Of a stretch of DNA of 64,000 bases, positions 32,216 through 58,911 are shown in pieces. Each line of letters begins with the position of its first letter. Within the stretch, counting starts at the first letter, position 1. The stretch spans positions 1,287,001-1,351,000 of the forward strand of contig NZ_CP022522.1 of assembly GCF_002850255.1 (NCBI RefSeq), written 5' to 3'. Both the position numbers and the translations under genes were made by a program. The notes under the pieces are model-generated. The model saw only the letters and a program-made list of their open reading frames with translations. It searched no databases and was not told where the DNA came from. This DNA is from Pseudoalteromonas sp. NC201. GTDB lineage: Bacteria > Pseudomonadota > Gammaproteobacteria > Enterobacterales > Alteromonadaceae.

Positions 32216-35200
32216 TTAAAGAGTGTTCATAATTTCTGACATTTTTATTAAGTCTTCCGGTGTTTTTACCCAACTGTTGTGCGACCCTTTCATGGTGAAC
32301 ACTTGAACCTGACTGGGTTGCATTGCTTCTTCGATAAGATTTTGATTCTTATCAAGGTATCGGTTGATTATATGACTGGAAAGTTGTAACTCTAGGCTAT
32401 CCGACTGAGCCACTTCAACCGCACAACCAGCACTAAATAGCGTCACCTTTGCGGTGCTAGAAAATGCCGGATCATTTTGGTAGTGATAATTAATTCTATC
32501 GGGCTCAAGATGACTGAACTCTGGGTGTAGAGCAAAAACTTCATCATGCATCGCGGCATAGTCAAAACAAGGGTCGACGAACACCAAGTGTTCGACTGTG
32601 TCCCCCTCATTTTGCAGCAGTTTGGCAACCTCAAGTGCCAGCGTTGCGCCAAAACTCCAACCAAAAATCCGATAAGGACCACTAGGCTTTAGCTTTTTAA
32701 GATGAATAGCATACTGCAACGCCAATGTTTGGAACTGATAATAGTCATAGGCGAGCGAGCCCTTTGGTTTTTCCTGTGCGGCATAGATGTTATTGAAGCA
32801 ATAACAAGGCGCGGAAATCTTGGGAGCAATGGATTGCAAGTAACTCTCAGCACCACCGCCACCCGGAGGGAAGAAAAACCATTCAATAGGGGCATCGGCT
32901 TCATTCACCAATACGCCGATCTCAATATCGCTTAGGGTTTTTATGCCTTGGGGATTTGCGGCTGTAATCGAATGTGAAACGACGGCTCGAAGGGCAGCAT
33001 CGAACTGCTCTATGAATGCGGTGGTTTGCGTCTCATCTAACTGACTTGCAATGCTCACTTGTAGTCGCATTTGACGCACTTCGGCGTTCACGATGAGTGC
33101 CATTTCATCCTGATTATTCTTGCTGCTGGCATCGCCTGAGTGTGCATTTAGCATTCGTATGCCCTGATCTTGTGCATCGCTATTGCTATCAAGTTGTCCC
33201 AAGTAATTAAAGCTAACTTTAGGTAATTGATTGAAGGAAAATTCCCCACGTCTGACCAATTCGCTGAAACCTAAACCTTTATCTGGAATGGCACGAAGCG
33301 TTTCTTTGCTTTGAATAATCAGCGTCGATAAATCCGTGTCATTTTTCAGAGCAACCGGAAACATACTAGTAAACCAGCCTAGTGTTCTTGACGTATCAAT
33401 ATGGTCACTCAGATGTTCTCGGCCGTGGCCTTCTAACGTGAGGTGGCAATAGTTTGTAGCAAAGGTATTGCACCAAGCCCGAGTAAACGCACTCATTAAG
33501 AGATCATTGATTTCTGTGTTAAATCCAGCAGGAGCAAGGCGTAGCAATTGCTCAGTAAGCTGAGTATCAAATTGATGCGTAAGACGCTGTTGTGATTTAC
33601 CGTAAGGTATGTTTTGTTGTGTGCTTAGCACGTTTTGCCAATACGGTATTTGTTGTTCAAAAGGATGCTGGGCCACAACGTCTGACCATTGGCGATAACT
33701 GCTGGTTTTGTCGCTTAAGGTGTCGCCTTGTAGCAAGCGGCTTAAGTCTTCGACCAAAATACGCCACGAAACACCATCAATCACAAGGTGGTGAACGATA
33801 AGTACGAGTCTAGTTAGCGGCGTATCATCGCTGAGTAAAACCGGGTGCCACAAAGCACCTGAACCGAGTTCAAAACGGGCGTGTATTTTGCTCAACGCCA
33901 GTCCAGTTTGCTGCTCATCAAGCCCCAAGGTGTCCAGATGGATAAGCTTTGGTGCTGGGCACGCTTCAATACTTTGATATTGGGATTGCCAAGTCTCGGT
34001 TTTGCTAAACTGAGCGCGCAACATGTCATGTTGTTGATGCAGCTGCGCAAGTGCACGCTCCAAAGTATCCAGCGTGGTATTGTGCGGAAGTGCGAGCATG
34101 ACCGACTGATTAAAATGCGCTTTATGACGGTAGTGGGAGTTGAGGAACCATTGCTGGATAGGTAATAACTTGATTTCTCCGCTGAGCTCACCTTGTTCAG
34201 CCTCGATTTCTACCCGTTCATTATTTGCCAAAAATGCACAAAGCGCTTCTAGGGTTGGATACGTAAATATGTCTTTGGTCGACAGCGAATAGCCAGCACG
34301 TTTGAGAGCTGACATGAGCTGAATGCTCATAATTGAGTCACCACCAATATGGAAGAAGTTATCTTCCAAGCCAATCTGCTTAATTCCCAATACAGCACAC
34401 CAGATTTTAGCGATATGCTTTTGCTGTTCTGTGTTTGGAGCATGGTGAGTCTCAGTTTGGCTAAAATCGGGCTGCGGTAGTGCTCGGGCATCAATCTTGC
34501 CATTAACCGTAACGGGTAGGGCGTCTAATGTGACGTAAGCACTTGGCAGCATATAACTCGGTAGCATGTGAGAGAGTGCTTGCTTGAGCTTTGCCTCATC
34601 TAGTGACTCAGCATTTGCCATGACCAAATAGGCTACGATACGTTTAATCCCATCTTGTTCATTCACGTTTACAAACGCAGTATGAATTTGCGGTTGTTGC
34701 TTAATTGCAGTTTCAATCTCGCCAAGTTCGATGCGGTAACCACGAATTTTCACCTGAAAATCATTACGACCAACATACTCTAATAAGCCATCTTCACGCC
34801 ATTTAACCAAATCTCCCGTTTTATACATTTTGTTCCAACCGCTTGCGAGGTATCTATCCGATGCGAACGGATTAACTAAGAATGCTTGTTCGGTTAAATC
34901 TGAACGGTGTAAATAGCGTCTTGCCATACCCGCGCCGCCAATATAAAGCTCTCCTGCCACGCCCGGTGGAAGTATTTTGCCAGCAGGTGACAACACGTAA
35001 GCAGATTTATTGGCAATAGCGCGGCCAATAGGTGCTCCGTGATTTACAGAGTTGAGTAAGCAGCAAGTCGCATAAACGGTGGTCTCTGTTGGGCCATAGG
35101 CGTGGTAAAGCATCAGCTCTGGCGCTTGATGCTTTACTCGCTCAACCATAGCTAAGTCGACCGCCTCTCCACCAAAATTAATCTGTTTAAGTCCGGCGTG

Positions 35201-38200
35201 TAAGAAGAAGTCTTCGTTAGCTAAACGATTAAATAGCGCAGTGGTTACAAAACACGTATCAATCTGCTGTGCTTGGCAGTATTCAATCAGTCGTTCTGGA
35301 TCAAGTTGAGTCTGTTTATCTATCAGGTGTAGTGCTGCGCCATTACTGAGTGTGACAAAGCAGTCAAAAATAAACGCGTCGAAGCTAATACTCGATAAGC
35401 TAAGGACTTTGCTCAGTTGTGTGGGATCGATAAAGTGGTCGTCAGTGGCATAGTTTAATAGTGCCTCATGGTTGATTTCTACGCCTTTAGGGTTACCTGT
35501 GGTACCAGAGGTATAGATAATATAAGCCAAATCAGACGGGCTCACCGATACCGCTTGGTCTAAGCTTGTTTCCTCCATTGGTGCATCGCTGAGTACATGT
35601 GTCAGTGAGGCAAGTGTTGTACTCGCAACTCTATCCATTAATCCCGATTGGGTGACCACGATTTTCGCACCACAGTCCTTGGCAATATATTCAATCCTTG
35701 AGTCAGGAAATTCCGGTGATACAGGAACATAACCACCGCCTGCTTTAAGAATAGCGAGGATCGCAACGATAGAGTCCAACTGTTTTTCATGCAGCAACAA
35801 GACTGGAAAATCACCTTGATACTCGTCGCCATAAATCTCAGCCTTAATCACCAATAATTGCTGGGCAAGCTGGCAAGCCTGGCGGTTGAGTGCTTGATAG
35901 CTTAGTGCTTCATCTTGCCAGAACACAGCGGCTGCATCCGGGAATACAGCGACTCTTTCACTAAATAAGTCGTTGAAGTTCTCGAAGCCACATGACTCGC
36001 GCTCGGTTTTATTCCACTCGTTGAGAATACGGGCCTTTTCCACTGTATTAGCAATTTCAATGTGCTGATGAGGTAAGAGAGTATTGTCAGCGACTTGCTT
36101 GAGGATAAGTAGCAGTTGAGATTGCAGTTGTGCGGCACGTGCTGGCGAAAGCAAACTGGCGTCGTACATCAGCTCAAGTTGCAGCTCTCCTTGCTCCTTT
36201 GCTATCAATGCAAGTGGGTATTCAACTTGCTCTGGTGCGGCGTCAAACTGCCAGCGAGCTTGTTGTGCCTCTGCTTGTTCATTTTCAAGGCTTGGGTAGT
36301 TTTCGAAAACGACTAGGCTTTGGAATAGCCGATTACCACCTTGTTGCAGTGACGCGAGTGACACATTCGCATGGCTATTTAAGTCCAAAATGGCAGTTTG
36401 GATCTTCTCGAGTTGTTGCGCGATGGTAGCATCTGTAGGCCAATCAAGATAAAGCGGTAGCGTATTGATGTAAGCTCCAACACTTTGCTCTATGCCGTCA
36501 ATTGGTAAGTCGCGACCTGCGATAGTTGTACCTACTAAAGTAAATTCGTCGCGAGTATGGATTTGGATAAGCTTATGCCAGGCAAATTGTACCGCAGCAT
36601 TGAGCGTGACAGAATGTTGCTGACATGCTTGCTGCAACTTACTTAACATCTCGTTTGGTAGGGCAAAATGCAGCGCCTGCGGGTCATGATTATGACGGAG
36701 CGTTTCTAAATCTGTTGAGTGACTAAACAGGGTGTTAAGATCGTTTGCTTGTGATAAATCAGCGACATGATATTGCCAAAATGCTTTGGTGGCGGCCTGA
36801 TTATCTCTTAGGTAAGCATGGGCATCTAAATAGGCGTTGTCCACCTGTAAAACAGGTTCTTGACCTTGTAGTAATTGCGTATAGTTCTGGTGAACGGTCT
36901 GCATAACTAACGGGCCACTCCAGCCATCACAAATGCTGTGATGCTCTGTTTTTATTAGGTGATAATGCGCTTCACCGCGTTTTACCAAATGCAGTGTAAA
37001 TAACCCCGGTCTTGCAAAATTAAAGGGCTGATTTAGCACTTGGTTTGCAAGCTTTTCTATGTGTGCTTGTTGTTCTGCTTTTGAATATTGACTGATATCA
37101 ATCACGCTAAAGTTATCTTCATCAACACAGGTGTGATCCACGATAAGTTGCAGCATGGTTTCTTCAACATCAAAAGCACAGCGCAGCGCTGGATATTGCA
37201 GCGAGGTTAGTTGCCACGCACGACAGTAAAGCGCAGTGTCAATTTTATCGAAATACTGCATCTGTGACTGCACCCGATAGGCGGTATCTTCTGGACTATT
37301 AAGCTGGTGGAAGATAAAACCTTGCTGCAAGTTTGTTGCGGGATAAAGCGCGGCTAGGTCGTAGCGTGTGCGCAGTGCATCTAAGTGGGCGAAGCTGACG
37401 CCTGTCAGGTTATAGTCGCTCGGCGTTTGTTTGGCGCCAAGCGCTTTGGTATGTAATGCCGTGTCCAGCACCGCTTGCAGACTGGCAGTGAACTGACTTT
37501 GGAATAGGGCAAATTCGGTTTCAGACAATGCCGTGGTGCAATTTAAGACAAGCTGACCATGAATAATAGCCGCGTTGATATCAAGAACGTAATGACCATT
37601 ATTTTCGCTTGCGACTGGTTGACCTGTAATGGCTTCAGTTAAGTAGAAGTCACCACTGGGTTGCTGCGTTTTTGTGCCACCGATTTGGCCTAAATAGTTG
37701 AATGCAACGGTTGGTAAAGTCCCCGTCACTTGTTTGGAAAAATAGAATTGACCAAAACCAACGCCATTGTCTGGCAATTTACGCAGCTGCTCTTTGGCAT
37801 TGACAATAGCGCTTTCGAGACTAGAACCCGCATGGAGTGCTAGTGGATATAATGACGTAAACCAGCCCACGGTGCGTGAATGATCTATATCTTCGGCGAT
37901 GTGTTCACGACCATGTCCTTCAAGCGCAATAACCTGATCATTACTACCAGTGATATGAGCTAGAGTTAGTGAAAGCGCAGCGACGACAAGGTCTCGAGGC
38001 TCTGTGTGGTAGCCTTGATTAGCGTCAAACAGCAACGTTTGTGTAAATGCAGAGTCAAGTTTAATTACTTGGTTTCTCGGTGTACTATTCGCTGTTAAGT
38101 GTGTTTGACAAGTATCAAGTACTTCTTGCCAGTAATCGATTTGTTCGGCTTGAACATGTGCGTATTGGTTTAAGGTCTCAACCCATTGACGGTAGCTTGA

Positions 38201-41200
38201 GGTTTTTTGCGCCAATTTTTTGCCTTGATAAAGGCTATTTAAGTCCTCAATTAGGATCCGCCAAGAGACAAAGTCAATGATCAGGTGGTGGAAGGCCAAT
38301 ACCAATACATCTTGGCTTTGGCGTTTGACACGAATTGGCTGCCATAGAGGGCCTGAATTTAACGCAAACTGTGACTGCAAACGGGTTAATTGCTTGGCAA
38401 GCTCGTCGTCACTGAGTGTGTCTGCATCAAGTTTAACTAGAGGCGCCATGGTATTATTTTGTTGGTACTGCTGGGTAATGTGCGCCGTCTTTTGATTGAA
38501 AACAAGGCGGAGCACATCATGTTGCTCAGCAAGCTCGGACAATAGCTCAACTAATCTCTCATCACTGATTGCGCTTGGCATTACAGTGGCAAAAGTTTGG
38601 GCAAAGTGTGCGGGGTTAGCAAACTGATTTGCGAAGAACCACTGCTGGATAGGCAGCAGATCGAACTCGCCTTCAAGCTGGCCTTGTTCGGTTTTTATCG
38701 TAACCTTCTTGTCGCCATTCGCACTGATAAGCTTTGCCAGCCGCGCGGGAGTTGGGGCGGCAAATATCTCTTTAACTTGTACCGTTAACCCAGCTTCTCT
38801 TAAGCGTGAAACCAGCTGAATACTGACAATTGAGTCGCCGCCGATTTGGAAGAAGTTATCCTCAATCCCCACTTGTTCTAGGCCAAGTACCTGTTGCCAA
38901 ATCTCACAAAGCTGGGTCTCTAAGGCATTGCGTGGTGCCACATAGAGGTTGTCGGCTTGAAGCTCTGGCACGGGGAGTGCTTTGCGGTCAAGCTTACCGT
39001 TACCCGTGAGTGGAATATGCTCGATTAGAGTAAAGTGACTGGGCACCATGTATTCAGGTAAAGCAGCACTTAGGGCGAGCTTTACCTCGGTAATTTCAAG
39101 GTCAGGCTCTGCGACAAGATAAGCGGCCAGCGCTTTGCCTTGCGGTGCAGGCACGTCAATCACTACCGCGTTTTGTACGCCTTGTTGGTCGACAATAGCA
39201 GCGGCAATCTCGCCTAGTTCGACACGATAACCACGAATTTTCACCTGCTCATCGTTACGACCGAGATACACCAAGTCGCCGTTGTCTAGGAAGCGGGCAA
39301 GGTCACCGGTTTTGTACAGCTTGCTATGGGCGGGGTCGTGACTAAATGGATTATCAATAAAGCGCTCAGCATTGAGTTCAGGGCGGTTTAAGTAACCCCG
39401 GGCAACCCCAAGGCCTGAAATATATAACTCACCCGGCGCACCAATGGGCATGGGCTGCAGCGACTCAGACAACACATGAAGATTAACGTTAGGGTAGGCT
39501 TTACCTATGCCTTGATGAAGACGTGGGTAGGCCTGTGCTAGCATCGCACCGACTGTGGCTTCCGTTGGGCCATATTCATCGAAAATAGCGTTCACATGGT
39601 CGCTTAATGCGGCGATGGCCAGCTCGGTCAGCGCTTCACCACCGAGCATTAGGGCATCGACTTGTGCGTCGCTGCCAGGCAATAGCGCCATGGCAAGACT
39701 GGGTGTGGTTTTCACAAAGCCAACGTTCGCGGTATTTAGATGAGCTCTAAAGGCGGCGGCATCAAGAATATCGCCTTCATAAACACACACCGTTTGTCCA
39801 GCAAGGAGCGGGCATAAGGTGGTCGTCACCGACAGGTCAAAACAGTAGTTAGAAGAAAAGTCGATATTACGATACTTGTCACCTAACTGGCTGGTTAAGG
39901 CATGAAGGTAGTAAAGCACATTGTGCTGCGTGAGCATCACGCCTTTTGGTAGTCCGGTTGTCCCTGAGGTGTAGATGATATAAGCCAAGTTAGCCAACGC
40001 GGTTGGACGCACTAAGTTCTCATGCTCCACCGCCAGTGCAGGGGTGTTTACGCCGAGCGCTGTGGCTTTTCCAAGCACAGGCTCAAGTGAAGGCAAGTGG
40101 CTTTCCTGGGTTAGCACTAAGTCGGTGTTGGTGTCAGTTAAAATAAATTCAACCCGAGCTTCGGGGTAATCTGGTGAAACAGGCACATAGGCACCACCGG
40201 CTTTGAGCACGGCCAAAATAGCAATAAGCATCTCGCTACTGCGAGAAAAGTAGAGGGCGATAGGGGTATCGGCAGGCAATAGGCCAGCTTGGGCTTTGGG
40301 GTGCTGAGCAATGATTTGCTTCGCAAGGGCATTAGCTTTACCGTTCACTTCGGCATAAGACAGCGTTTCACCGCTGCTGGTTAACATGGCCGCTTGCTCT
40401 GGGGTGTTAGCGGCGTGCTGCTCTACTAAGCTGGCCAGATCTTTGTCGGTAGCAAACGACTCGGCGTTGTTGTGCCAAGCACGGAGTGTGTCAGTCTCAG
40501 TTCTATTTTGTAGGGCTACTTTTGCAAGTGGCTGTGCGGTTCTGGCGATCACCTGATCGATAATATTGATAAAGCGCTCAGCAAGAGTTGCGATCCAGTC
40601 ACTTGGAAATAGTGCGGTGGCATAGTTAATATCACCAAATACTTCTTCGTCACCATTTTGTAGCAGTAAACTAATGTCGAACTTAGCCACTTTATGTAGC
40701 GCTTTTACTTGTGACTCATCCACAGGCGTAAACAGCTGTTGGCTGCTGTCGTCGCTGTTATTTTTAAATTGCTCAAGCGCAAACATCATTTGAAATAGCG
40801 GGTGGCGAGACGGATCCCGTTGTAATTTTAGGGCGTCGACCAATTTATCAAATGGCAGATCTTGGTGCGCCTTTGCCGCTTTTAAGGTTTGGTGCACTTG
40901 TTGGATTAAGGTATTAAAGTCGAGTGCGTTATCAATATGAACTGGCAGGGCTAAGCTATTGACCAAAAAGCCAATAAGATTTTGTGTCTGGCTTAGGTGA
41001 CGGTTGTCAGATGGCGTACCTATGACTAAATCTGACTGACCGCTGGTTGCTTGTAATGTCAATGCCCAGCTGCTGAGCAGTACTACATAAAGACTGGTTT
41101 GTTGCGTTTTGGCTATGGCCTTGAGGGCTTCGCTTCGTTCCTGACCCAAATGAATACGGTGGTCGGCACCGTGATATTGATATTCATTTGGCCTTGGTAG

Positions 41201-42013
41201 TGGCGAATGTAATTCAAGCTGCTCAGCACCTGCAAGTGCATCAGTCCAGTGGTCTAAAAGCTTAGTTAAGGTATCGCCGCTGAGATACTCGCGCTGCCAC
41301 CTTGCGTAATCTTGGTACTGTAACTCAAGCGCTGGTAGCTCAGGCGTTTTGCCTGAAGCTAGCATAAAATAGGCTTGGTGTAGCTCACGCATAAAGATTT
41401 CGGTGGACCAGCCATCAAACGCAATATGGTGCCACATAAATAGCACGTAACGTTCAGCGTCTAATGTCCAACAGCAAACCTTGAACATAGGCTCATTGGC
41501 TAAGTCAAATGGTGTACTGATCGCTTGTTTAACAGCCGTATTAAGCGCAGCTAAGTCAGCCACAGGGCTAGGCGTAATCTCAATACAAGCGCTCAACACT
41601 TCTTGATAGTCGAGGCCTTGCTCGTCTTGACGATAGACACTGCGAAGGACTTCGTGCCTATCTAACACGATATTCAACGCCTGTTCTAAGTGTGCAAGCT
41701 CGGTGTGCTCAGCGAGTTTAACCAAAAACGGAATATGATAAGCGTTGGTGCCATTTTCTAACCGTTCGATAAATAATAAACGCTCTTGCGCAAACGAAAG
41801 CGGATAGCGGTTTAATTCTGGCAGTGTATTAAACGCATCCTTTGAAAAAATTGCTTTTGCTTCAAGGTAATCCATTAGCTGCGTTTTGTTTGACTTTAAC
41901 TTTGCAACAAGCGCAGCATCTGGCGCTTGCGCGCCAAATGACAGCTCTAGTCCGCCGTCTTGCAACCAGATTGAGAGATTGTGATCTTTCAGTTCAGCGA
42001 GCAATGACAACAT
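32216..42013 (-). CDS. altM: NRPS, modules 4-5 with thioesterase (Asn, Leu/Ile)
   Basis: 3265 residues. Order: TubC-like docking domain (1-60), C (66-500, HHIAFDGW), A (513-1030), T (~1040-1105, IGGDS), E (~1120-1555, HHLIIDFVSW), C (~1570-1990, HHSICDGW), A (~2010-2510), T (~2525-2600), E (~2610-3040, HHLVIDGVSW), TE (~3060-3265, GWSFG with Ser3120, His in KGSHNSW). My reading of the specificity pockets is D-L-T-K-M-G-E-V-G for the first (Asn type) and D-A-F-F-N-G-A-V-Y for the second (branched aliphatic, Leu/Ile like). So it adds D-Asn and D-Leu/Ile, then the TE releases and probably cyclises the peptide. The first C looks like LCL (LSFAQERLLF), the second like DCL (LQQGFIFH). A GAGG site precedes the start, two bases after the previous stop. 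Confidence 0.95.
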   Translation of the reverse strand: MLSLLAELKDHNLSIWLQDGGLELSFGAQAPDAALVAKLKSNKTQLMDYLEAKAIFSKDAFNTLPELNRYPLSFAQERLLFIERLENGTNAYHIPFLVKLAEHTELAHLEQALNIVLDRHEVLRSVYRQDEQGLDYQEVLSACIEITPSPVADLAALNTAVKQAISTPFDLANEPMFKVCCWTLDAERYVLFMWHHIAFDGWSTEIFMRELHQAYFMLASGKTPELPALELQYQDYARWQREYLSGDTLTKLLDHWTDALAGAEQLELHSPLPRPNEYQYHGADHRIHLGQERSEALKAIAKTQQTSLYVVLLSSWALTLQATSGQSDLVIGTPSDNRHLSQTQNLIGFLVNSLALPVHIDNALDFNTLIQQVHQTLKAAKAHQDLPFDKLVDALKLQRDPSRHPLFQMMFALEQFKNNSDDSSQQLFTPVDESQVKALHKVAKFDISLLLQNGDEEVFGDINYATALFPSDWIATLAERFINIIDQVIARTAQPLAKVALQNRTETDTLRAWHNNAESFATDKDLASLVEQHAANTPEQAAMLTSSGETLSYAEVNGKANALAKQIIAQHPKAQAGLLPADTPIALYFSRSSEMLIAILAVLKAGGAYVPVSPDYPEARVEFILTDTNTDLVLTQESHLPSLEPVLGKATALGVNTPALAVEHENLVRPTALANLAYIIYTSGTTGLPKGVMLTQHNVLYYLHALTSQLGDKYRNIDFSSNYCFDLSVTTTLCPLLAGQTVCVYEGDILDAAAFRAHLNTANVGFVKTTPSLAMALLPGSDAQVDALMLGGEALTELAIAALSDHVNAIFDEYGPTEATVGAMLAQAYPRLHQGIGKAYPNVNLHVLSESLQPMPIGAPGELYISGLGVARGYLNRPELNAERFIDNPFSHDPAHSKLYKTGDLARFLDNGDLVYLGRNDEQVKIRGYRVELGEIAAAIVDQQGVQNAVVIDVPAPQGKALAAYLVAEPDLEITEVKLALSAALPEYMVPSHFTLIEHIPLTGNGKLDRKALPVPELQADNLYVAPRNALETQLCEIWQQVLGLEQVGIEDNFFQIGGDSIVSIQLVSRLREAGLTVQVKEIFAAPTPARLAKLISANGDKKVTIKTEQGQLEGEFDLLPIQQWFFANQFANPAHFAQTFATVMPSAISDERLVELLSELAEQHDVLRLVFNQKTAHITQQYQQNNTMAPLVKLDADTLSDDELAKQLTRLQSQFALNSGPLWQPIRVKRQSQDVLVLAFHHLIIDFVSWRILIEDLNSLYQGKKLAQKTSSYRQWVETLNQYAHVQAEQIDYWQEVLDTCQTHLTANSTPRNQVIKLDSAFTQTLLFDANQGYHTEPRDLVVAALSLTLAHITGSNDQVIALEGHGREHIAEDIDHSRTVGWFTSLYPLALHAGSSLESAIVNAKEQLRKLPDNGVGFGQFYFSKQVTGTLPTVAFNYLGQIGGTKTQQPSGDFYLTEAITGQPVASENNGHYVLDINAAIIHGQLVLNCTTALSETEFALFQSQFTASLQAVLDTALHTKALGAKQTPSDYNLTGVSFAHLDALRTRYDLAALYPATNLQQGFIFHQLNSPEDTAYRVQSQMQYFDKIDTALYCRAWQLTSLQYPALRCAFDVEETMLQLIVDHTCVDEDNFSVIDISQYSKAEQQAHIEKLANQVLNQPFNFARPGLFTLHLVKRGEAHYHLIKTEHHSICDGWSGPLVMQTVHQNYTQLLQGQEPVLQVDNAYLDAHAYLRDNQAATKAFWQYHVADLSQANDLNTLFSHSTDLETLRHNHDPQALHFALPNEMLSKLQQACQQHSVTLNAAVQFAWHKLIQIHTRDEFTLVGTTIAGRDLPIDGIEQSVGAYINTLPLYLDWPTDATIAQQLEKIQTAILDLNSHANVSLASLQQGGNRLFQSLVVFENYPSLENEQAEAQQARWQFDAAPEQVEYPLALIAKEQGELQLELMYDASLLSPARAAQLQSQLLLILKQVADNTLLPHQHIEIANTVEKARILNEWNKTERESCGFENFNDLFSERVAVFPDAAAVFWQDEALSYQALNRQACQLAQQLLVIKAEIYGDEYQGDFPVLLLHEKQLDSIVAILAILKAGGGYVPVSPEFPDSRIEYIAKDCGAKIVVTQSGLMDRVASTTLASLTHVLSDAPMEETSLDQAVSVSPSDLAYIIYTSGTTGNPKGVEINHEALLNYATDDHFIDPTQLSKVLSLSSISFDAFIFDCFVTLSNGAALHLIDKQTQLDPERLIEYCQAQQIDTCFVTTALFNRLANEDFFLHAGLKQINFGGEAVDLAMVERVKHQAPELMLYHAYGPTETTVYATCCLLNSVNHGAPIGRAIANKSAYVLSPAGKILPPGVAGELYIGGAGMARRYLHRSDLTEQAFLVNPFASDRYLASGWNKMYKTGDLVKWREDGLLEYVGRNDFQVKIRGYRIELGEIETAIKQQPQIHTAFVNVNEQDGIKRIVAYLVMANAESLDEAKLKQALSHMLPSYMLPSAYVTLDALPVTVNGKIDARALPQPDFSQTETHHAPNTEQQKHIAKIWCAVLGIKQIGLEDNFFHIGGDSIMSIQLMSALKRAGYSLSTKDIFTYPTLEALCAFLANNERVEIEAEQGELSGEIKLLPIQQWFLNSHYRHKAHFNQSVMLALPHNTTLDTLERALAQLHQQHDMLRAQFSKTETWQSQYQSIEACPAPKLIHLDTLGLDEQQTGLALSKIHARFELGSGALWHPVLLSDDTPLTRLVLIVHHLVIDGVSWRILVEDLSRLLQGDTLSDKTSSYRQWSDVVAQHPFEQQIPYWQNVLSTQQNIPYGKSQQRLTHQFDTQLTEQLLRLAPAGFNTEINDLLMSAFTRAWCNTFATNYCHLTLEGHGREHLSDHIDTSRTLGWFTSMFPVALKNDTDLSTLIIQSKETLRAIPDKGLGFSELVRRGEFSFNQLPKVSFNYLGQLDSNSDAQDQGIRMLNAHSGDASSKNNQDEMALIVNAEVRQMRLQVSIASQLDETQTTAFIEQFDAALRAVVSHSITAANPQGIKTLSDIEIGVLVNEADAPIEWFFFPPGGGGAESYLQSIAPKISAPCYCFNNIYAAQEKPKGSLAYDYYQFQTLALQYAIHLKKLKPSGPYRIFGWSFGATLALEVAKLLQNEGDTVEHLVFVDPCFDYAAMHDEVFALHPEFSHLEPDRINYHYQNDPAFSSTAKVTLFSAGCAVEVAQSDSLELQLSSHIINRYLDKNQNLIEEAMQPSQVQVFTMKGSHNSWVKTPEDLIKMSEIMNTL
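38862..40477 (-). repeat. Direct repeat copy A: Asn adenylation domain DNA
   Basis: 1616 bases matching 42233-43848 (offset 3371) with one difference found by eye, base 38954 (G) versus 42325 (A), which is silent. Identity stops abruptly: one border is in the carrier-protein core just before IGGDS, the other in the C-A linker (WHNNAES). It encodes residues 513-1051 of this NRPS. Confidence 0.97.
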
Positions 42014-42015
42014 GG

Positions 42016-45000
42016 TTAAATCCTCATGCTATTAGTTTGTTCTTGTTGTGATCCGGAGTCTGCTTTAATCTCGATATCCACGCTCAGCGTCTCTAAGTTG
42101 TCGACGATTGCGGCAATATGGGTATGCTCAAACAAGGCTGAAATTGGGATGTTTAAATCCAGTGCTTTATTACACGCATTCATCAACCGGATAGCCGAGA
42201 TAGAGTCCCCCCCGATACTGAAGAAATTATCTTCAATCCCCACTTGTTCTAGGCCAAGTACCTGTTGCCAAATCTCACAAAGCTGGGTCTCTAAGGCATT
42301 GCGTGGTGCCACATAGAGGTTGTCAGCTTGAAGCTCTGGCACGGGGAGTGCTTTGCGGTCAAGCTTACCGTTACCCGTGAGTGGAATATGCTCGATTAGA
42401 GTAAAGTGACTGGGCACCATGTATTCAGGTAAAGCAGCACTTAGGGCGAGCTTTACCTCGGTAATTTCAAGGTCAGGCTCTGCGACAAGATAAGCGGCCA
42501 GCGCTTTGCCTTGCGGTGCAGGCACGTCAATCACTACCGCGTTTTGTACGCCTTGTTGGTCGACAATAGCAGCGGCAATCTCGCCTAGTTCGACACGATA
42601 ACCACGAATTTTCACCTGCTCATCGTTACGACCGAGATACACCAAGTCGCCGTTGTCTAGGAAGCGGGCAAGGTCACCGGTTTTGTACAGCTTGCTATGG
42701 GCGGGGTCGTGACTAAATGGATTATCAATAAAGCGCTCAGCATTGAGTTCAGGGCGGTTTAAGTAACCCCGGGCAACCCCAAGGCCTGAAATATATAACT
42801 CACCCGGCGCACCAATGGGCATGGGCTGCAGCGACTCAGACAACACATGAAGATTAACGTTAGGGTAGGCTTTACCTATGCCTTGATGAAGACGTGGGTA
42901 GGCCTGTGCTAGCATCGCACCGACTGTGGCTTCCGTTGGGCCATATTCATCGAAAATAGCGTTCACATGGTCGCTTAATGCGGCGATGGCCAGCTCGGTC
43001 AGCGCTTCACCACCGAGCATTAGGGCATCGACTTGTGCGTCGCTGCCAGGCAATAGCGCCATGGCAAGACTGGGTGTGGTTTTCACAAAGCCAACGTTCG
43101 CGGTATTTAGATGAGCTCTAAAGGCGGCGGCATCAAGAATATCGCCTTCATAAACACACACCGTTTGTCCAGCAAGGAGCGGGCATAAGGTGGTCGTCAC
43201 CGACAGGTCAAAACAGTAGTTAGAAGAAAAGTCGATATTACGATACTTGTCACCTAACTGGCTGGTTAAGGCATGAAGGTAGTAAAGCACATTGTGCTGC
43301 GTGAGCATCACGCCTTTTGGTAGTCCGGTTGTCCCTGAGGTGTAGATGATATAAGCCAAGTTAGCCAACGCGGTTGGACGCACTAAGTTCTCATGCTCCA
43401 CCGCCAGTGCAGGGGTGTTTACGCCGAGCGCTGTGGCTTTTCCAAGCACAGGCTCAAGTGAAGGCAAGTGGCTTTCCTGGGTTAGCACTAAGTCGGTGTT
43501 GGTGTCAGTTAAAATAAATTCAACCCGAGCTTCGGGGTAATCTGGTGAAACAGGCACATAGGCACCACCGGCTTTGAGCACGGCCAAAATAGCAATAAGC
43601 ATCTCGCTACTGCGAGAAAAGTAGAGGGCGATAGGGGTATCGGCAGGCAATAGGCCAGCTTGGGCTTTGGGGTGCTGAGCAATGATTTGCTTCGCAAGGG
43701 CATTAGCTTTACCGTTCACTTCGGCATAAGACAGCGTTTCACCGCTGCTGGTTAACATGGCCGCTTGCTCTGGGGTGTTAGCGGCGTGCTGCTCTACTAA
43801 GCTGGCCAGATCTTTGTCGGTAGCAAACGACTCGGCGTTGTTGTGCCATTGGCTAAGCGTTGTCTGCATTTGGTTATTGACCAAGCTAATGCTTTGATGG
43901 CTTTGTGTCAGTCGCTCCCCAAGCTGAACCAAAATAGCTTGTACTTGGTCAAGGATCCACTCTGCCCGTGCGGTGCTCAGCCATTCCCCGTTGTAATGCA
44001 TCACAAAGTCTAAGCGGTCTTGTTCGCTTTGGACCACCACAGAAAGCGGATAGTCGCCTTTTTCTATTGATTCTCTAAACTTCCAACTGCCGGTATTTTC
44101 TGGAGTCGGGTAGTTTTCAAATACAAATAGGGTATGGAACAAGCGTTGACCATCACGTTGCAGTTTCGACAAGCTCATGTCGCTGTGGCTATTGAGTGCA
44201 GCTACGCCTTTTTGAATGGCTTTGAGAATGTCATTACAACTTGCTTCTGCTTGCCAATTCACCACTAAAGGTAAGGTATTGATGAACAAACCGACCGCTT
44301 GTTCAATCCCATTGACTGGAATTTCACGACCGGAAACTGTGCTACCAACAATCGTTTGGCTATCACCAGAATAGGTTTGCAGTAACTTATGCCAAGCAAA
44401 TTGCAATGCAACGTTGAGGGTTACGCCAGCTTGTTGACAAGTATGTTGTAGCGACCTAAACGCCTCGCCTTGAAGACTAAACTGCACCGATTGCACTTGC
44501 TCAACGATTCGACTTTGCGATAAGTCATACTGACCACCAAGCAACAAGTTAATATCGTTTGCGGTATCAAATTCGGCTTGTTGTTGCTGCCAGTAAGCCT
44601 GAGTTTGCTTGGCATTTTTAAGGTAATAAGCTTGCGCCTCTAAATAGGTTTGCTGCGCTTGCACCTCTGGTGTTTTCCCTGCACAAAGCTGGCGATAATA
44701 CTCAGCGACTGCTTGCAGGATTAACGGTCCACTCCAGCCATCATTAATGGCATGGTGCTCGGTTTTAATAAGTGTGTAGAGGTTTTCACTGCGCTTAAAT
44801 AAGGTGAAGCGAATAAGCCCCGGTTGACTTAGGTCAAACGGAACTTGTCGGTCTGCGGCTTGGGCTTTGCTGATGGCTTGCTGTTGGCCGTGCTCGTCAA
44901 GGGATGACAGATCTACTTTGGTGAAGTGGCTGTCATCGATACTGGCATCGCGACACACCACTTGGAGTAGACACTCTTGCCAATCAAAAGCGGTGCGAAG

Positions 45001-48000
45001 AATAGGGAAGCGAAGCGATGCTAAACGCCAGGCATGAATAAAGTGTTCAACCTCTAGCGCTTGTTCAATATCCATGACCAATTGCACTCGGTAGGCATCA
45101 TCCGTTGGGAAGTTAACAGCATGATAGATAAAGCCTTGTTGCAAGCTATTAGCCGGGTAAAGTGCTTCGATATTATAGTGCTTGCTCAGCGCTTGATAAT
45201 GCCCATAAGACAAGTCGCTTAATCCCAAATCGCTAGGGGTTTGCTGTGGTGTTTGCGCGGCTAGTTCACAACTTGCATTAATGACCTGATGAAGCGCCAT
45301 TTCAAAGTGCTCAACAAATGCCAACGACTGTGATTGGTTCAACCTCGAAACCACATCAAAGTGAAGCTTGTCACCGCGAACTGCGCCATTGATGTTGAGT
45401 AGCAGTGCATTGTCAGCCTGAGCGTTTGCCTCAGTCATCACATAGCCTGCTTGAGTATCATCCAGCTGCCAATCTCGGTTTTGCTGTTGTTGCTGATTCA
45501 ATTGACCTAGGTAGTTAAAGCTCACCTGAGGGCGAATTGCGCTGACTTTGTCTGCTTGCACAAAAGCGCCATAACCCACGCCTTTATCCGGGATTTGGCG
45601 CAGCATTTCTTTGGTGTTTGCGATGGTTGCAATAACGTCGTCGTGGTGTTCAAGGCGCACAGGATACATACTGGTAAACCAGCCTAAGGTTTGCGACACA
45701 TCCAAGCGCGGATCTATATTTTCACGACCATGACCTTCAAGTTGAATATGATTAACGGTACTGTCAAAAGTGCTGTGTAGGGCAATATTGAGTGCCGCCA
45801 AAAGCAAGTCGTTAATGTCAGTATTCAAACCAAGATTGGCATCTCGTAGCAATTTAGCGGTCGTTTCTTGCTCAAACGTGATGCTGTATTGTGATTGTGC
45901 TGAGTAAGTGGGTTGGCTAGTAAAGCCTTTTTGTACCCGCTGCCAATAGTACGCTTGCTCAGGGTGAGCCGAAGGGTAGGTGGCAATGGCATCCACCCAC
46001 TGACGATAGCTGGTAAGCTTGTCTGTTAGTGCTTCACCATTTAATAGGGTTTGTAAGTCTTGGCTTAACACCCGCCACGATACCACATCAATAATGGCAT
46101 GATGGAAGGCAAAGAATACCTGACTGCCCTCGGCCGTTTTCACCAACGCTGCCTGCCACAGGGGGCCATTGAATAAATCAAATTGGCTTTGTAGTTTGGT
46201 CAATTCGTTAAATAACGCGTCTTTACTCAGAGCCGTTGCATCAAGTAATGGGACTTCAAGCTCTATTGCCGCTTGGTACGCTTGTTTTACCCCGTTGCTG
46301 GTCTGAACAAAGTGACAACGTAGCATGTCATGATGCTCGCTCAGCGCTTGAATAGCTTGAGTCAGCCCCGGGTGTTCAATGTGTTCAGGTAAGTTAAGGG
46401 TAAATGCTTGGTTCCAATGGTGTGGATTTGGTAGCCCTAAATCGAAAAACCACTGTTGGATAGGCAGTAGTGCAAACTCACCACTTAACCTACCTTGCTC
46501 CGTGATAAGTTCAATGGTTTCAGTGCTAACGTGTTGAATTAAATAGGCCTGCGCTGCCACGCTTGGGGCGTCAATGATGTCTTTAACCTGAAGGTTAAAG
46601 CCAGCTTTACGCAGCGCAGACACAAGTTGAATACTGACAATAGAGTCGCCACCGACTTTGAAAAAGTCATCATTAACGCCCACTTGTTCTAGACCCAATA
46701 CTGACTGCCAAATACCACACAATTGTTTTTCTAATTCGCTGCTCGGGGCTTGATAGTTGTCTTCATCCACCACGGTTGGAATAGGCAGTTGCTTGTGATC
46801 CAGCTTACCATTGTTGTTAAACGGTAACGCCGACATCACTTCAAAGTAGCTTGGGATCATATAGCTAGGTAAAACCTGAGCCAGTTCCTGTTTTACTGCA
46901 TTGAGGTCTAACTCGCCGTGCTCTGGTACCACGTATGCAGCAAGTTGCTTGTTGCCCGCTTGTTCGAATACCACCACAGCGGCGACTTTCACTTGCGCCA
47001 ATTCGTTGAGTTGAGCTTCTATTTCAGCAAGCTCAATCCTAAACCCGCGGATCTTCACTTGGTGATCGTTACGGCCTAAAAACTCTAGTACGCCAGACTC
47101 GGACCAACGTCCTAAGTCTCCCGTTTTATACAGTTTATCTAGCCCGAGTTGTTTGGCCTTTGCGCTTGCAAACGGGTTATCGATAAAGCGCGCAGCACTC
47201 ATTTCTGGTTTATTAAGGTAGCCACAGGCAAGTCCGGCACCCGCTATAAATATCTCGCCTGTCGCGCCGTATGGCACTGGATTAAGATGTTTATCAAGCA
47301 ATAATACTTGGCGATGATTAATGGCTTGGCCGATGGGCACCGGGCCATCAATATTGGCACATGGATAGAAAGTGGTAAATGTCGTGCTTTCAGTTGGACC
47401 ATATGCGTTTATCACCAACTCAGGTCGCGTATCTCTGGCGAGAATGCGTTTAACTATGCTTGGAGTGATTGCCTCACCGCCTGTTAGTACGCAGCGGACA
47501 TTGTCATAAATATCAGGTTGTTGTAAATACAGCGAATCAAACAGTGTGCGCGTTAGCCAAAGTACACTAACACCGTGTTGTTTAATTAACCTTGATAGGC
47601 TGTCAGGATCCGCGCCTTGTTGCGCACTTGCTACAACCAATTTGCAGCCGTTTATCAGTGGTGTCCAAATTTCAAACGTTGCGGCGTCAAAATTTGGATT
47701 AGATAGGTGAATAAACACGTCGTTTTCTGACGTGTTTATTAAATCAGTATCTTGTACCAAAGAAACAACGCCACGGTGTGGAACGACCACGCCTTTTGGC
47801 TCACCTGTCGTACCGGATGTATAGATCACATAGGCTTCGGTTTGCGCATGTGCGCCTGATAGTACGGGCGCTGCATCAGACAAAGACAAGCTATCTAAGC
47901 AGGTAATTTGCGGCTCTGCATCACAACTTACAACGAGTGTTTCGATACGCGGGCGCAGCTCGCTTTGTGTTAAAATCAAACCAAGTTGCGTGTCGTTGAG

Positions 48001-49860
48001 CATATACTCTATGCGCTGATCTGGATAATCAGGGTTAAGCGGTACATAAGCACAACCCGCTTTTAGGATAGCCAGTTTTGCGATTACCATTGCAATAGAG
48101 CGTTCACAGAAAAGCCCAACAAAGCGATGGCTGCCAACGTCCACATGATCTTTAATGTAGGCGGCAAGATTATTCGCGCTTTGTTCTAATTCTTGATAGG
48201 TCAGCTGCATTTCGCCTTCAACCAGCGCTATTCGAGTTGGCGTTTTTTGTACTTGCTGAGCAACCAATTCATGGATAGTAGAGTGCAAATAATCCGCATG
48301 CTCATCTACCTCAACCATTGGTGCTCGCTCATCATTACTTAACAAAGAAATTTGGCTATGCGGCTGGTTCTCATCAGCAATAATGGCATCTAACACCAAT
48401 GTCATTTGGGTGAGCAATCGCTGTGCTTTGCTTGGTGCCAACATGGTTTCGCAGAAGCTTAACTTAAGTAGCAAGATATCTTGTTGTTCAACAATGCTGA
48501 TGGTGAGCGGATAGTCTACTTTTTCAATCATCTTATCGAACGACCATTCGAGTACGTCTTGTCCCGCTGGCGTCGGATAGTTTTCAAATACAAATAGACT
48601 GTTGAACAGGCGAGTATTCGGCTCTTGTAGTTGCGACAGTGAAACACTGCTGTTGCCGTTAAGTTCTGCAATTTTTTCTTTCAGCGCTGTAAGCTGGGTG
48701 CGAATACTGGCCGTTTCTTGCCAATCAAGGGAAAGAGGTAGGGTGTTGATATATAAACCAACACTGGCATGGATCCCGTCAATGGGGAGTTCACGACCCG
48801 AGACCGTTGTGCCTACTATGGTTTGCTCAGCGTCGCAGTAATATTGCAGTACTTTATGCCAAGCAAATTGCATTAAGACGTTCAGCGTTAGTCCGTGTTG
48901 TTTAGCAAATGCTTTGAGCTGTTGATGGCGCTCTGAAGAGAGCTTTAATTCGCTCGCCGCTGCTTTTTGGATCTGTGACGAGCCAGATTGGTCAATATTT
49001 TTACTCAATAAGCGGTTGATATCATTGGGCTCACCAAATTGTGCCTTTTGGGTTTGCCAATAGCTATCGCTAGATTTTTGATTTTGCTGATAGCGCGCTT
49101 GTGTTTGTAGGTAAGCCGTTTCTTCTTCAACAATGACCGGCTCGCCTTTGGTTAGTTTGGCGTAGTTTTGATGCACGGTTTGCAGCATCACCGGAAAGCT
49201 CCAACCATCGCTGATGCTGTGGTGTTCTGCTTTAATTAGGGTGTAATGTGCATCGGCGCGTTTAACAATAGCAAAACGCATTAATCCAGGTTGAGTCAAA
49301 TCGAAAGGCGTATTACGGTCGTCGTGAATGAGCTTATCGATACGCGTCTGTTGTTCAATGTGGTCTAACGTGCTGAAGTCGTGAAAACTGAAGTGATTTG
49401 GGGTAAATCCGGCCCCTCCTTTGATCACTTGGATGATTTCATTTTCCCAGTTGAACGCGGTACGTAGCGCAGGGTAACGCATTGATGCCAAGATCCAAGC
49501 CTGTTGGTAAGCATCGACATCAAGTGCTTGATGGTAATCGATGACTAACTGAACGCGGTAAGCATCGTCATTTGGTTGGGCAAGGTGATGATAAACAAAA
49601 CCTTTTTGCATACTGTTAGCATCAAAGATGGCACGGATCTCAGATGCCTTTTTATGCTCAGTCGCTAGCAACTGTTCAAAGTCTTGTTCGGAAAAAACTT
49701 GTTGCGATACAAGGTAATCTAATAATACGGCTTTATTCGCTTTGAGGTAGTCAACCCATTGTTGGCTGAGTCCTTGCTCACCATGGACAATCTTAAGTTT
49801 GTCTCCATTGGCCCAAAGCGCAATGTTATCCTTTGCAAGTGATTGGCATAAATTCAACAT
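42016..49860 (-). CDS. altL: NRPS, modules 2-3 (Val, Asn)
   Basis: 2614 residues. Order: TubC-like docking domain (1-60), C (~78-510, HHSISDGW), A (~530-1040), T (~1050-1115), E (~1135-1570, HHAIIDVVSW), C (~1585-1990, HHAINDGW), A (2005-2530), T (~2540-2600). Pocket readings are D-A-F-W-L-G-A-T-F (Val type) and D-L-T-K-M-G-E-V-G (Asn type). It should add D-Val then L-Asn; the last carrier has no E partner and differs (IGGDSISAIRLMN) from the E-linked carriers. Both C domains have the QxGFxYH pattern of DCL domains, fitting an upstream E each time. The C-terminal tail is Gln/Ser/Glu rich, ending NSMRI. Confidence 0.95.
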   Translation of the reverse strand: MLNLCQSLAKDNIALWANGDKLKIVHGEQGLSQQWVDYLKANKAVLLDYLVSQQVFSEQDFEQLLATEHKKASEIRAIFDANSMQKGFVYHHLAQPNDDAYRVQLVIDYHQALDVDAYQQAWILASMRYPALRTAFNWENEIIQVIKGGAGFTPNHFSFHDFSTLDHIEQQTRIDKLIHDDRNTPFDLTQPGLMRFAIVKRADAHYTLIKAEHHSISDGWSFPVMLQTVHQNYAKLTKGEPVIVEEETAYLQTQARYQQNQKSSDSYWQTQKAQFGEPNDINRLLSKNIDQSGSSQIQKAAASELKLSSERHQQLKAFAKQHGLTLNVLMQFAWHKVLQYYCDAEQTIVGTTVSGRELPIDGIHASVGLYINTLPLSLDWQETASIRTQLTALKEKIAELNGNSSVSLSQLQEPNTRLFNSLFVFENYPTPAGQDVLEWSFDKMIEKVDYPLTISIVEQQDILLLKLSFCETMLAPSKAQRLLTQMTLVLDAIIADENQPHSQISLLSNDERAPMVEVDEHADYLHSTIHELVAQQVQKTPTRIALVEGEMQLTYQELEQSANNLAAYIKDHVDVGSHRFVGLFCERSIAMVIAKLAILKAGCAYVPLNPDYPDQRIEYMLNDTQLGLILTQSELRPRIETLVVSCDAEPQITCLDSLSLSDAAPVLSGAHAQTEAYVIYTSGTTGEPKGVVVPHRGVVSLVQDTDLINTSENDVFIHLSNPNFDAATFEIWTPLINGCKLVVASAQQGADPDSLSRLIKQHGVSVLWLTRTLFDSLYLQQPDIYDNVRCVLTGGEAITPSIVKRILARDTRPELVINAYGPTESTTFTTFYPCANIDGPVPIGQAINHRQVLLLDKHLNPVPYGATGEIFIAGAGLACGYLNKPEMSAARFIDNPFASAKAKQLGLDKLYKTGDLGRWSESGVLEFLGRNDHQVKIRGFRIELAEIEAQLNELAQVKVAAVVVFEQAGNKQLAAYVVPEHGELDLNAVKQELAQVLPSYMIPSYFEVMSALPFNNNGKLDHKQLPIPTVVDEDNYQAPSSELEKQLCGIWQSVLGLEQVGVNDDFFKVGGDSIVSIQLVSALRKAGFNLQVKDIIDAPSVAAQAYLIQHVSTETIELITEQGRLSGEFALLPIQQWFFDLGLPNPHHWNQAFTLNLPEHIEHPGLTQAIQALSEHHDMLRCHFVQTSNGVKQAYQAAIELEVPLLDATALSKDALFNELTKLQSQFDLFNGPLWQAALVKTAEGSQVFFAFHHAIIDVVSWRVLSQDLQTLLNGEALTDKLTSYRQWVDAIATYPSAHPEQAYYWQRVQKGFTSQPTYSAQSQYSITFEQETTAKLLRDANLGLNTDINDLLLAALNIALHSTFDSTVNHIQLEGHGRENIDPRLDVSQTLGWFTSMYPVRLEHHDDVIATIANTKEMLRQIPDKGVGYGAFVQADKVSAIRPQVSFNYLGQLNQQQQQNRDWQLDDTQAGYVMTEANAQADNALLLNINGAVRGDKLHFDVVSRLNQSQSLAFVEHFEMALHQVINASCELAAQTPQQTPSDLGLSDLSYGHYQALSKHYNIEALYPANSLQQGFIYHAVNFPTDDAYRVQLVMDIEQALEVEHFIHAWRLASLRFPILRTAFDWQECLLQVVCRDASIDDSHFTKVDLSSLDEHGQQQAISKAQAADRQVPFDLSQPGLIRFTLFKRSENLYTLIKTEHHAINDGWSGPLILQAVAEYYRQLCAGKTPEVQAQQTYLEAQAYYLKNAKQTQAYWQQQQAEFDTANDINLLLGGQYDLSQSRIVEQVQSVQFSLQGEAFRSLQHTCQQAGVTLNVALQFAWHKLLQTYSGDSQTIVGSTVSGREIPVNGIEQAVGLFINTLPLVVNWQAEASCNDILKAIQKGVAALNSHSDMSLSKLQRDGQRLFHTLFVFENYPTPENTGSWKFRESIEKGDYPLSVVVQSEQDRLDFVMHYNGEWLSTARAEWILDQVQAILVQLGERLTQSHQSISLVNNQMQTTLSQWHNNAESFATDKDLASLVEQHAANTPEQAAMLTSSGETLSYAEVNGKANALAKQIIAQHPKAQAGLLPADTPIALYFSRSSEMLIAILAVLKAGGAYVPVSPDYPEARVEFILTDTNTDLVLTQESHLPSLEPVLGKATALGVNTPALAVEHENLVRPTALANLAYIIYTSGTTGLPKGVMLTQHNVLYYLHALTSQLGDKYRNIDFSSNYCFDLSVTTTLCPLLAGQTVCVYEGDILDAAAFRAHLNTANVGFVKTTPSLAMALLPGSDAQVDALMLGGEALTELAIAALSDHVNAIFDEYGPTEATVGAMLAQAYPRLHQGIGKAYPNVNLHVLSESLQPMPIGAPGELYISGLGVARGYLNRPELNAERFIDNPFSHDPAHSKLYKTGDLARFLDNGDLVYLGRNDEQVKIRGYRVELGEIAAAIVDQQGVQNAVVIDVPAPQGKALAAYLVAEPDLEITEVKLALSAALPEYMVPSHFTLIEHIPLTGNGKLDRKALPVPELQADNLYVAPRNALETQLCEIWQQVLGLEQVGIEDNFFSIGGDSISAIRLMNACNKALDLNIPISALFEHTHIAAIVDNLETLSVDIEIKADSGSQQEQTNSMRI
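42233..43848 (-). repeat. Direct repeat copy B: Asn adenylation domain DNA
   Basis: Partner of 38862-40477, with one silent difference. It covers residues 2005-2543 of the second NRPS. Flanking sequence diverges at once on both sides, so the duplicated unit is the A domain plus the front of the carrier protein. Confidence 0.97.
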
Positions 49861-54417: not shown

Positions 54418-54440
54418 TGCGTGATCCTTGTTTTTTCGCC

Positions 54441-55196
54441 TTAACACAACGGCTTTTGCCAGTTTGCTTTTTGGTATTTTGTTTGCTGCAAGCGTGCTAG
54501 GTGTCGCGCTACTGCGGCGACAATCACCTCACACGCCAGCGTTGGGCGTTGTTGTAAATACATATGACCGCCATCGACATGATGGTATTGAAAATAGTTC
54601 TCGCAGTACTCAGACCAAGCTTGGTGTGACTCAGGCTTAACCAAGTGATCTTGTGTGGCGAGGATCAGTTCGACCGGCATCGTTAACGTAATGTCAGTAC
54701 TGACGGGTTGCTCGGCTAACATAAAGTCGTCTTTAAACATGGCGGCCACAACCGCTTCTACGTCCTTCGTTAAACGATGTTTAGGCAGCATGTCGAGATG
54801 ATATAAAGTCGTGAGCAAGTCCGAGTCAGTCAATTTTGAGTACTGGGTAGCCGAGGGAATACTTGGCGCGCGACACCCTGATAGACAGAGTAAATCCGGT
54901 GTTGTCAGTGCGTGTTTAGCAAGATGATCGGCAAGCTTATAAGCCACCATCCCGCCAAGACTGTGACCAAAAAACACGCACAACCGCTCACTACGCGGCT
55001 GAAGTTGCGTGCTACTACTTAGGTGACTAAGTGCCTCATCCCAGTCCCGTAAAGATTGCATGCCTGCTTTAGTACCACGGCCCGGTAAGTCGATGCCGTG
55101 GAGTTGCCAATGCGCAGGTAAATGTTTGGCCCATTCCCTAAAAAACAAAGAAGAGCCACCTGCGTGATGGAAACAGTATAAGTCAACCGGCATCAT
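54441..55196 (-). CDS. Type II thioesterase
   Basis: 251 residues of the GrsT/TEII family: nucleophile Ser79 in GHSLGG, Asp in LATQDHL, and His in DGGHMYLQQ. It hydrolyses stalled or wrong acyl groups off carrier proteins, keeping the assembly line running. Start overlaps the previous stop by 4 bases; 23 bases separate it from the first NRPS. Position J if the lyase gene is A. Confidence 0.9.
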   Translation of the reverse strand: MMPVDLYCFHHAGGSSLFFREWAKHLPAHWQLHGIDLPGRGTKAGMQSLRDWDEALSHLSSSTQLQPRSERLCVFFGHSLGGMVAYKLADHLAKHALTTPDLLCLSGCRAPSIPSATQYSKLTDSDLLTTLYHLDMLPKHRLTKDVEAVVAAMFKDDFMLAEQPVSTDITLTMPVELILATQDHLVKPESHQAWSEYCENYFQYHHVDGGHMYLQQRPTLACEVIVAAVARHLARLQQTKYQKANWQKPLC

Positions 55197-56628: not shown

Positions 56629-56639
56629 AACCAAGTTCC

Positions 56640-58910: not shown

Positions 58911-58911
58911 C

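Follow-up and report, generated by a model that had tools for sequence, protein, structure and literature searches.

What makes two neighbouring biosynthetic genes share 1.6 kb that differ at a single base, and is the likeness new or has it been kept? The question is raised by a 64,000-nucleotide stretch of Pseudoalteromonas sp. NC201 (contig NZ_CP022522.1, positions 1,287,001 to 1,351,000; G000:C1:1287001-1351000, hereafter the window), in which two adjacent non-ribosomal peptide synthetase (NRPS) genes each carry an asparagine (Asn) adenylation (A) domain together with the front half of the carrier (T) domain behind it. The original prediction took this for a natural subdomain swap caught soon after it happened. 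Our analysis leads us, with high confidence, to a different answer: the pair of Asn cassettes is old, and its two copies have evolved in concert through recurrent gene conversion within each genome. We number the five modules of the cluster M1 to M5 and call the shared stretch the block; its copies and borders lie in M3 and M4, as follows.

42233..43848, minus strand: M3 copy, Asn A domain and front half of the T domain in the last module of NRPS gene 2; code pattern D-L-T..E..V-G
38862..40477, minus strand: M4 copy, Asn A domain and front half of the T domain in the first module of NRPS gene 3; code pattern D-L-T..E..V-G
38954, minus strand: sole difference between the M3 and M4 copies, G/A, silent (1.0 synonymous, 0 non-synonymous)
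43846..43848, minus strand: Trp codon at which the M3 copy begins (5' border), in the linker (WHNNAES) between the condensation (C) and A domains
40475..40477, minus strand: Trp codon of the C-A linker at which the M4 copy begins (5' border)
42220..42232, minus strand: final 13 nt of homology in M3, the FF end (TTCTTC) before S-IGGDS, with two silent mismatches to M4 and then divergence
38849..38861, minus strand: matching 13 nt in M4 (FF before Q-IGGDS)

Realignment and silent-site divergence (dS) confirmed the central observation of the prediction. In an ungapped comparison, 38862-40477 and 42233-43848 differ at one silent base over 1616 bases and diverge sharply after that; beyond the block, the in-register identity of the two copies is 20-50% in 50-base windows. 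The length and identity of the block exclude chance as the source of the likeness. The repeats are direct, 1.6 kb each, with starts 3371 nt apart, and they are the only two full-length copies in the window's own genome (2 contigs, 5.38 Mb, 100% complete; 40 of 47 first-look candidates scored). The other 11 of the 13 matches there are short, the longest being 207 bases, with identities of 66-93%. The A domains of modules 1, 2 and 5, which have other codes, are not drawn into the repeat; no other long direct repeat was found in the window, and a search of a plasmid collection with the block gave no match.

Both borders also lie where they had been placed, in the C-A linker and in the carrier core before IGGDS. 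Read in the coding direction, the block starts exactly at the Trp codon, where the sequences of the two copies (SQ-WHNNAES and RA-WHNNAES) converge, and the two copies separate again within the T domain, at (S/Q)IGGDS just after FF. Past IGGDS, M4 continues as IVSIQLVSRLREAG, resembling the other modules that are followed by an epimerization (E) domain (M1, M2 and M5), and M3, which ends its gene, continues as ISAIRLMNACNKAL. The predicted arrangement, in which the carrier front is shared and the back half keeps the type of its own neighbour, stands with one refinement: the M3 carrier is the last domain of its gene, and its partner C domain sits in the next protein.

The age of the pair can be read from related genomes. 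We searched 108 genomes of the genus, scoring 3 candidates per genome. Some match to the block was found in 54 of the 108, mostly short and to other A domains; a match of at least 280 nt at 69% identity or more was found in 10. The cluster is unbroken across both copies in six of these ten, namely the window genome (G000), G073, G045, G046, P. peptidolytica DSM 14001 (G040) and G009, and both copies are present at the same place in all six. The borders of the pair agree within about 20 nt across the six clusters, and the D-L-T..E..V-G pattern is identical in all 12 copies. The first four are referred to below as the four close species; together with P. peptidolytica they make up the five alt genomes, named for the alterochromide (alt) cluster discussed below.

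The sixth genome, G009, lies much further away. Its cluster is syntenic, with NRPSs at 53-60% amino-acid identity, a halogenase at 75% and an ABC ATPase at 86%; compared with the alt border, its 5' border is shifted upstream by about 12 nt, an interval containing one mismatch, and its 3' border is the same within one base. We compared 290 A domains, drawn from at least 72 listed loci chosen by likeness to the window's protein, from G009 and from the window; among the matches listed, the two Asn domains of G009 are the closest to those of the window (65% amino-acid identity), the next being at 51%. We infer that the pair was present in the ancestor shared with G009.

These results bear directly on the idea that, in this strain, the cassette of one module was very recently copied into the other, replacing a different A domain. 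A single difference in 1616 nt is what such an event would leave. However, the pair is shared by all six unbroken clusters, one of them very distant; its borders hardly differ among them, and the code pattern is identical in all 12 copies. Copies at the same place in relatives were the very observation that the original prediction had named as speaking against it; they were looked for and found. As an account of the origin of the pair, the new event is already refuted and we regard it as highly improbable; it survives only as a recent last conversion in this lineage. The predicted recent duplication or conversion of a complete A cassette is accordingly supported as to the complete Asn A cassette, the gene conversion and the apparently recent last homogenisation (dS 0.003), and unsupported as to a new duplication.

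In the remaining four of the ten genomes, contigs end inside the block. One 4.2-kb contig of P. flavipulchra NCIMB 2033 holds parts of both copies, and its ends are identical over 849 nt; in Pseudoalteromonas sp. HM-SA03, P. piscicida 36Y and sp. S2755 the copy number is unreadable. We attribute these breaks in draft assemblies of the alt cluster to the near-identical repeat, which is hard to assemble, and for the same reason a collapsed or duplicated repeat could be suspected in the window itself. We consider such an artefact scarcely credible: the window genome consists of 2 contigs, and both copies are also present, with 41-100 differences between them, in three further genomes of 2 contigs; a collapsed repeat could not show such differences.

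If the pair is old, what has kept it alike? Within a genome, M3 and M4 are 99.9% identical in G000 (ungapped), 97.5% in G073, 93.8% in G045, 95.4% in G046, 96.1% in G040 and 99.6% in G009, whereas orthologous copies share 92.3-93.7% among the four close species, 87-89% with G040 and 61-62% with G009. Silent sites tell the same story. Paralogue dS is 0.003 in G000, 0.072 in G073, 0.230 in G045, 0.158 in G046, 0.119 in G040 and 0.013 in G009; for orthologues it ranges from 0.24 to 0.34 within the group of four close species and from 0.46 to 0.56 in comparisons with G040, and is saturated in those with G009, where nine of ten comparisons are not computable and one gives 2.78. Paralogues are thus closer than orthologues at silent sites, although only barely so in G045 (0.230 against 0.24 or more). 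The latest homogenisation in G000 looks recent (0.003 compared to at least 0.24 between species). Given that both copies must bind Asn, purifying selection alone might be thought to keep them alike; we give this practically no weight, since synonymous sites have been homogenised too, down to the low values within G000 and G009 and in the face of saturation between them.

Site patterns and trees agree with conversion within genomes. Of the ungapped sites of the block, 350 vary across the five alt genomes (66 gapped columns were set aside): 139 are fixed by genome, meaning that both copies agree in every genome while the genomes differ, none is fixed by module, and 211 are mixed. The flanks are the reverse, with 0 genome-fixed versus 236 module-fixed sites in the 600 nt upstream and 1 versus 221 downstream. 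In a tree of the block, the M3 and M4 copies pair by genome in five of the six genomes, G045 being the exception; support for the G040 pair is 91/100 with all 12 rows and 100/100 with the 10 alt rows. The approximately unbiased (AU) test rejects a clade of M3 copies both with G009 (12 rows, p 1.2e-6) and without it (10 alt rows, p 1.45e-4), and the adjoining C domains split by module with support of 100/100. The differences between M3 and M4 are patchy in G073, G045 and G046 (shuffle P <=0.0022), and paralogue identity drops near the 5' end of the block in the same three genomes, as expected if conversion tracts reach the edge less often.

One genome appears to preserve the trace of a separate conversion. 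In P. peptidolytica, M3 has M4's CAA ATC GGC GG after FF (FFQIGGDS) and keeps its own SAIRLM further on. Since Q-I is found in M4 of all six genomes and other codons stand in M3 of the other five, the simplest reading of these codons is a conversion with M4 as donor and M3 as recipient, in which the border moved by 11-20 nt. Within the block itself the direction of conversion is unreadable, shared module-specific sites being as rare as crossed ones (8 versus 9 for G045 and G046).

The block contains a 15-nt tandem repeat within the Asn A domain (40046-40060 and 43417-43431, minus strand), with units near GCGCTCGGCGTGAAG (peptide ALGVK/N) and one unit in the window. Its copy number varies: the length difference between the M3 and M4 copies is 30 nt in G073, 45 nt in G045 and 15 nt in G046, and the two are equal in G000, G040 and G009. 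Owing to this repeat, the alignment gave four differences for the G000 pair, where the ungapped count is one.

Several observations weigh against recurrent conversion as the full account. First, the copies of G045 (93.8%, dS 0.230) are unjoined in the tree and hardly nearer to each other than to their orthologues; conversion there is therefore old or partial. Second, the clustering of differences is not significant in G040 (shuffle P = 0.056) or in G000 (0.068). Third, the dS of the block among the four close species is 0.24-0.34, compared to 0.08-0.12 for the first 4.5 kb of gene 2 and 0.12-0.18 and 0.08-0.24 for the adjoining C domains. Conversion between M3 and M4 alone does not predict this raised divergence; imports from other strains, or different old copies fixed in each species, could account for it. 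Compared with these 4.5 kb of gene 2, the silent divergence of the block is raised roughly two- to threefold; it is not above all of the stretch that follows M4, where dS is 0.16-0.39.

Finally, the cassette might have reached this place independently on the branch of G009, having been copied separately in the alt clade and in the G009 lineage, with the same borders, and each pair then converted. Low dS within genomes (0.003 and 0.013) together with saturation between G000 and G009 means that the deep history has been erased, and this leaves room for such a scenario. However, the same module would have had to receive the cassette twice, with 3' ends that match to within one base and 5' ends no more than 12 nt apart, and the G009 Asn domains are the nearest to those of the window among the 290 A domains from the matches listed, a set chosen by likeness. 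We judge independent copying very unlikely.

The block also differs from its surroundings in base composition. Its raw G+C content at third codon positions (GC3) is above that of every other 1.6-kb tile of the NRPS genes in six of six genomes; in G000 it is 0.52, compared to a tile mean of 0.44 and a maximum of 0.469. With amino-acid boxes matched, the excess at four-fold sites shrinks to +0.04 to +0.09 (z 1.2-3.0). Both copies of G000 and of G040 then still top all other tiles, as do the M3 copy of G073 and the M4 copy of G046, but no copy of G045 or G009 does. Among polarised changes, those found in both copies comprise 21 from A or T to G or C and 19 in the other direction, and those in one copy 19 and 41; changes common to both copies are less AT-biased than single-copy ones (Fisher P 0.06). 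Taken whole, however, the block (40:60) is no different from the flanks (195:231; P 0.32). GC-biased gene conversion is at most hinted at by these numbers.

Concerted evolution of an old pair suggests the following mechanism, which we put forward on the strength of sequence comparison. An ancestor of the alt lineage would have acquired the same Asn cassette twice, once in each of the two modules. RecA-type recombination works well on direct repeats of this size and spacing (1.6 kb, 3371 nt from start to start), and the two copies would since have been homogenised repeatedly within each genome by non-crossover homologous recombination, that is, by gene conversion, probably of the RecA type. Upstream, tracts would stop where homology ends, in the C-A linker beside C domains of different type; downstream, the limit would be the point in the carrier core from which the E-serving and the gene-terminal T domain differ. 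With an identity of only 30-50%, the flanks are unlikely to be entered by tracts, which could explain stable borders without special selection. Conversion free of crossover would keep both genes, while a crossover would delete one Asn module; no such loss was seen in the six unbroken clusters.

Because both modules carry the Asn code, conversion should leave the product unchanged and be tolerated, and is probably functionally neutral; for the same reason, the process looks like maintenance and not diversification. A change of specificity is not seen, D-L-T..E..V-G being present in both copies in all six genomes, with the state before the first copying invisible. More tentatively, and in our view doubtfully, the homogenised unit may be set by the enzyme as well: selection on the C-A contact and on the contact of the carrier with its E or docking partner would remove tracts that cross the linker Trp or pass GGDS, a natural unit of A domain and half T domain with fixed nucleotide borders would thus be kept over silent-site saturation, and conversion would slightly favour G and C.

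To which pathway do the two Asn modules belong? The genes of the cluster in the window are listed here; the NRPS domains are given as Pfam stretches, and because C and E share one Pfam family, domain order and E domains were read by eye. TE denotes thioesterase.

49864..54447, minus strand: NRPS gene 1 (AltK-like), C-A(Thr code)-T-E
42016..49860, minus strand: NRPS gene 2 (AltL-like), C-A(Val code)-T-E-C-A(Asn)-T
32216..42013, minus strand: NRPS gene 3 (AltM-like), C-A(Asn)-T-E-C-A-T-E-TE
30849..32087, minus strand: FAD-dependent halogenase (AltN-like), Trp_halogenase 3.8e-26, the protein with 75% amino-acid identity in G009
54441..62665, minus strand: upstream alt genes, comprising a thioesterase, an SDR reductase, an ABC transporter pair, a ketosynthase, an AMP-binding protein and one gene without a Pfam match

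The five modules are spread over three genes, with an E domain in each except the third and a terminal TE, which matches the alt cluster, and the halogenase adjoins the NRPS genes, as it does there. The A-domain codes, read by eye, are DFWNIGMVH (M1), DAFWLGATF (M2), DLTKMGEVG (M3 and M4) and DAFFNGAVY (M5). We take these codes to stand for Thr (M1), Val (M2) and Asn (M3 and M4), with M5 only roughly Leu/Ile-like. Among the matches listed, five named Pseudoalteromonas records have 90-98% amino-acid identity in the best segment of gene 2.

Alterochromides are lipopeptides of the sequence TVNNL/I (PMC5577590), made by a cluster with the NRPS genes altKLM and the halogenase altN, in which every module bar that of Asn-1 has an E domain (PMC7333567); Asn-1 is L and Asn-2 is D (PMC7333567). 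The three NRPS genes, the halogenase, the TVNNL/I order and the E pattern described in these accounts are those of the window (PMC5577590, PMC7333567). Architecture, A codes and neighbours all fit the alt type, with Thr-Val-Asn-Asn-Leu, a marine antibiotic, as the predicted product, and the repeat would then comprise the A domains of its two adjacent Asn modules. Judging from the A-domain code, both copies probably load Asn. The near-identity of the two Asn modules seen here finds no mention in the available portions of the alt cluster accounts (PMC5577590, PMC7333567).

How common are such repeats and borders? Internal repeats of at least 400 nt and at least 85% identity occur in 11 of the at least 72 listed loci. 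We inspected borders in nine of the 11 (leaving out L021 and L031), covering in L016 one of the six listed repeats. The carrier-core border recurs in L010, the alt locus of P. peptidolytica (genome G040), and in three Pseudomonas loci, L024, L029 and L040; the other inspected repeats end elsewhere. L024, L029 and L040, perhaps one family, have internal repeats of 2.7 kb (87-91%) that run from within a C domain to FFELGG, where the HSLL and DSII types of T domain part. L015, another NRPS of P. flavipulchra, has a 1445-nt internal repeat (99.8%; 13934-15378 and 18458-19902) from the late A domain into a C/E-type domain, reaching the contig end.

Module 1 presents a side case. About 400 nt of Asub and the front half of T (window about 51380-51790, minus strand; also L101, L116 and L106) exist in two forms: one in G073, P. 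piscicida 36Y (97.8%) and P. peptidolytica (89.5%), the other (about 78%) in G000, G045, G046, sp. HM-SA03 (G072), sp. S2755 (G083) and P. flavipulchra, with a divergence of no more than a few per cent in the flanks. At its 3' end the stretch stops just after IGGDS. It looks like an exchange of alleles between species.

The kind of event, concerted evolution of NRPS domains, has been described before. Medema et al. (2014) reported that NRPS and polyketide synthase (PKS) domains evolve in concert by internal recombination, grouping by cluster and not by position, the NRPS cases being the A domains of daptomycin, A54145 and CDA (PMC4256081); the model in their Figure 4, in which duplicated modules are trapped in a cycle of divergence and recombination, fits the present pair (PMC4256081). 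Here, in contrast, we deal with two modules in six genomes, with exact borders, silent-site measures and one shifted border, and the alt cluster is absent from the portions of their account available to us (PMC4256081). Baunach et al. (2021) found that natural exchange mostly concerns the A core, with the native C-A linker and Asub-T interface kept (PMC8097286). Our case is alike in that recombination between modules is aimed at the A domain (PMC8097286), and it departs from their rule in that the exchanged unit comprises the A domain in full together with the front half of T, with specificity unchanged (PMC8097286). Their exception, BP18, in which Asub, much of the A core and part of T were swapped, is much like the block (PMC8097286). 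Our literature search, which left most subscription journals outside its reach, found nothing combining alterochromide with two or more of gene conversion, concerted evolution and adenylation domain.

The breakpoints had also been said to sit at sites often used for engineered swaps. Exchange units (XU) are fused in the C-A linker at WNATE, the unit being A-T-C (PMC11546977); the XUT scheme joins half T to half T, the unit being halfT-C-A-halfT (PMC11355689). A linker motif of WN type, WHNN in alt and WNNTE in G009, supplies the Trp at which the natural 5' border lies, near the WNATE of XU (PMC11546977), and the natural 3' border is inside the T domain, as in XUT (PMC11355689). The block, however, is A-halfT, and as these schemes are set out in the portions of the sources at hand, neither XU nor XUT uses just these two borders (PMC11546977, PMC11355689). 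What the locus adds is a clean example, with borders at the nucleotide level near engineering junctions.

For this family of enzymes, the pair is a natural record of where an NRPS tolerates being cut and joined repeatedly: one site is the Trp in the linker between C and A, the other the stretch leading up to the carrier serine, near the XU and XUT junctions. The repeats also entail a prediction, namely that a deletion between them, spaced 3.4 kb apart, would fuse genes 2 and 3 with loss of one Asn. More generally, near-identical modules within one genome give no date for the duplication that produced them.

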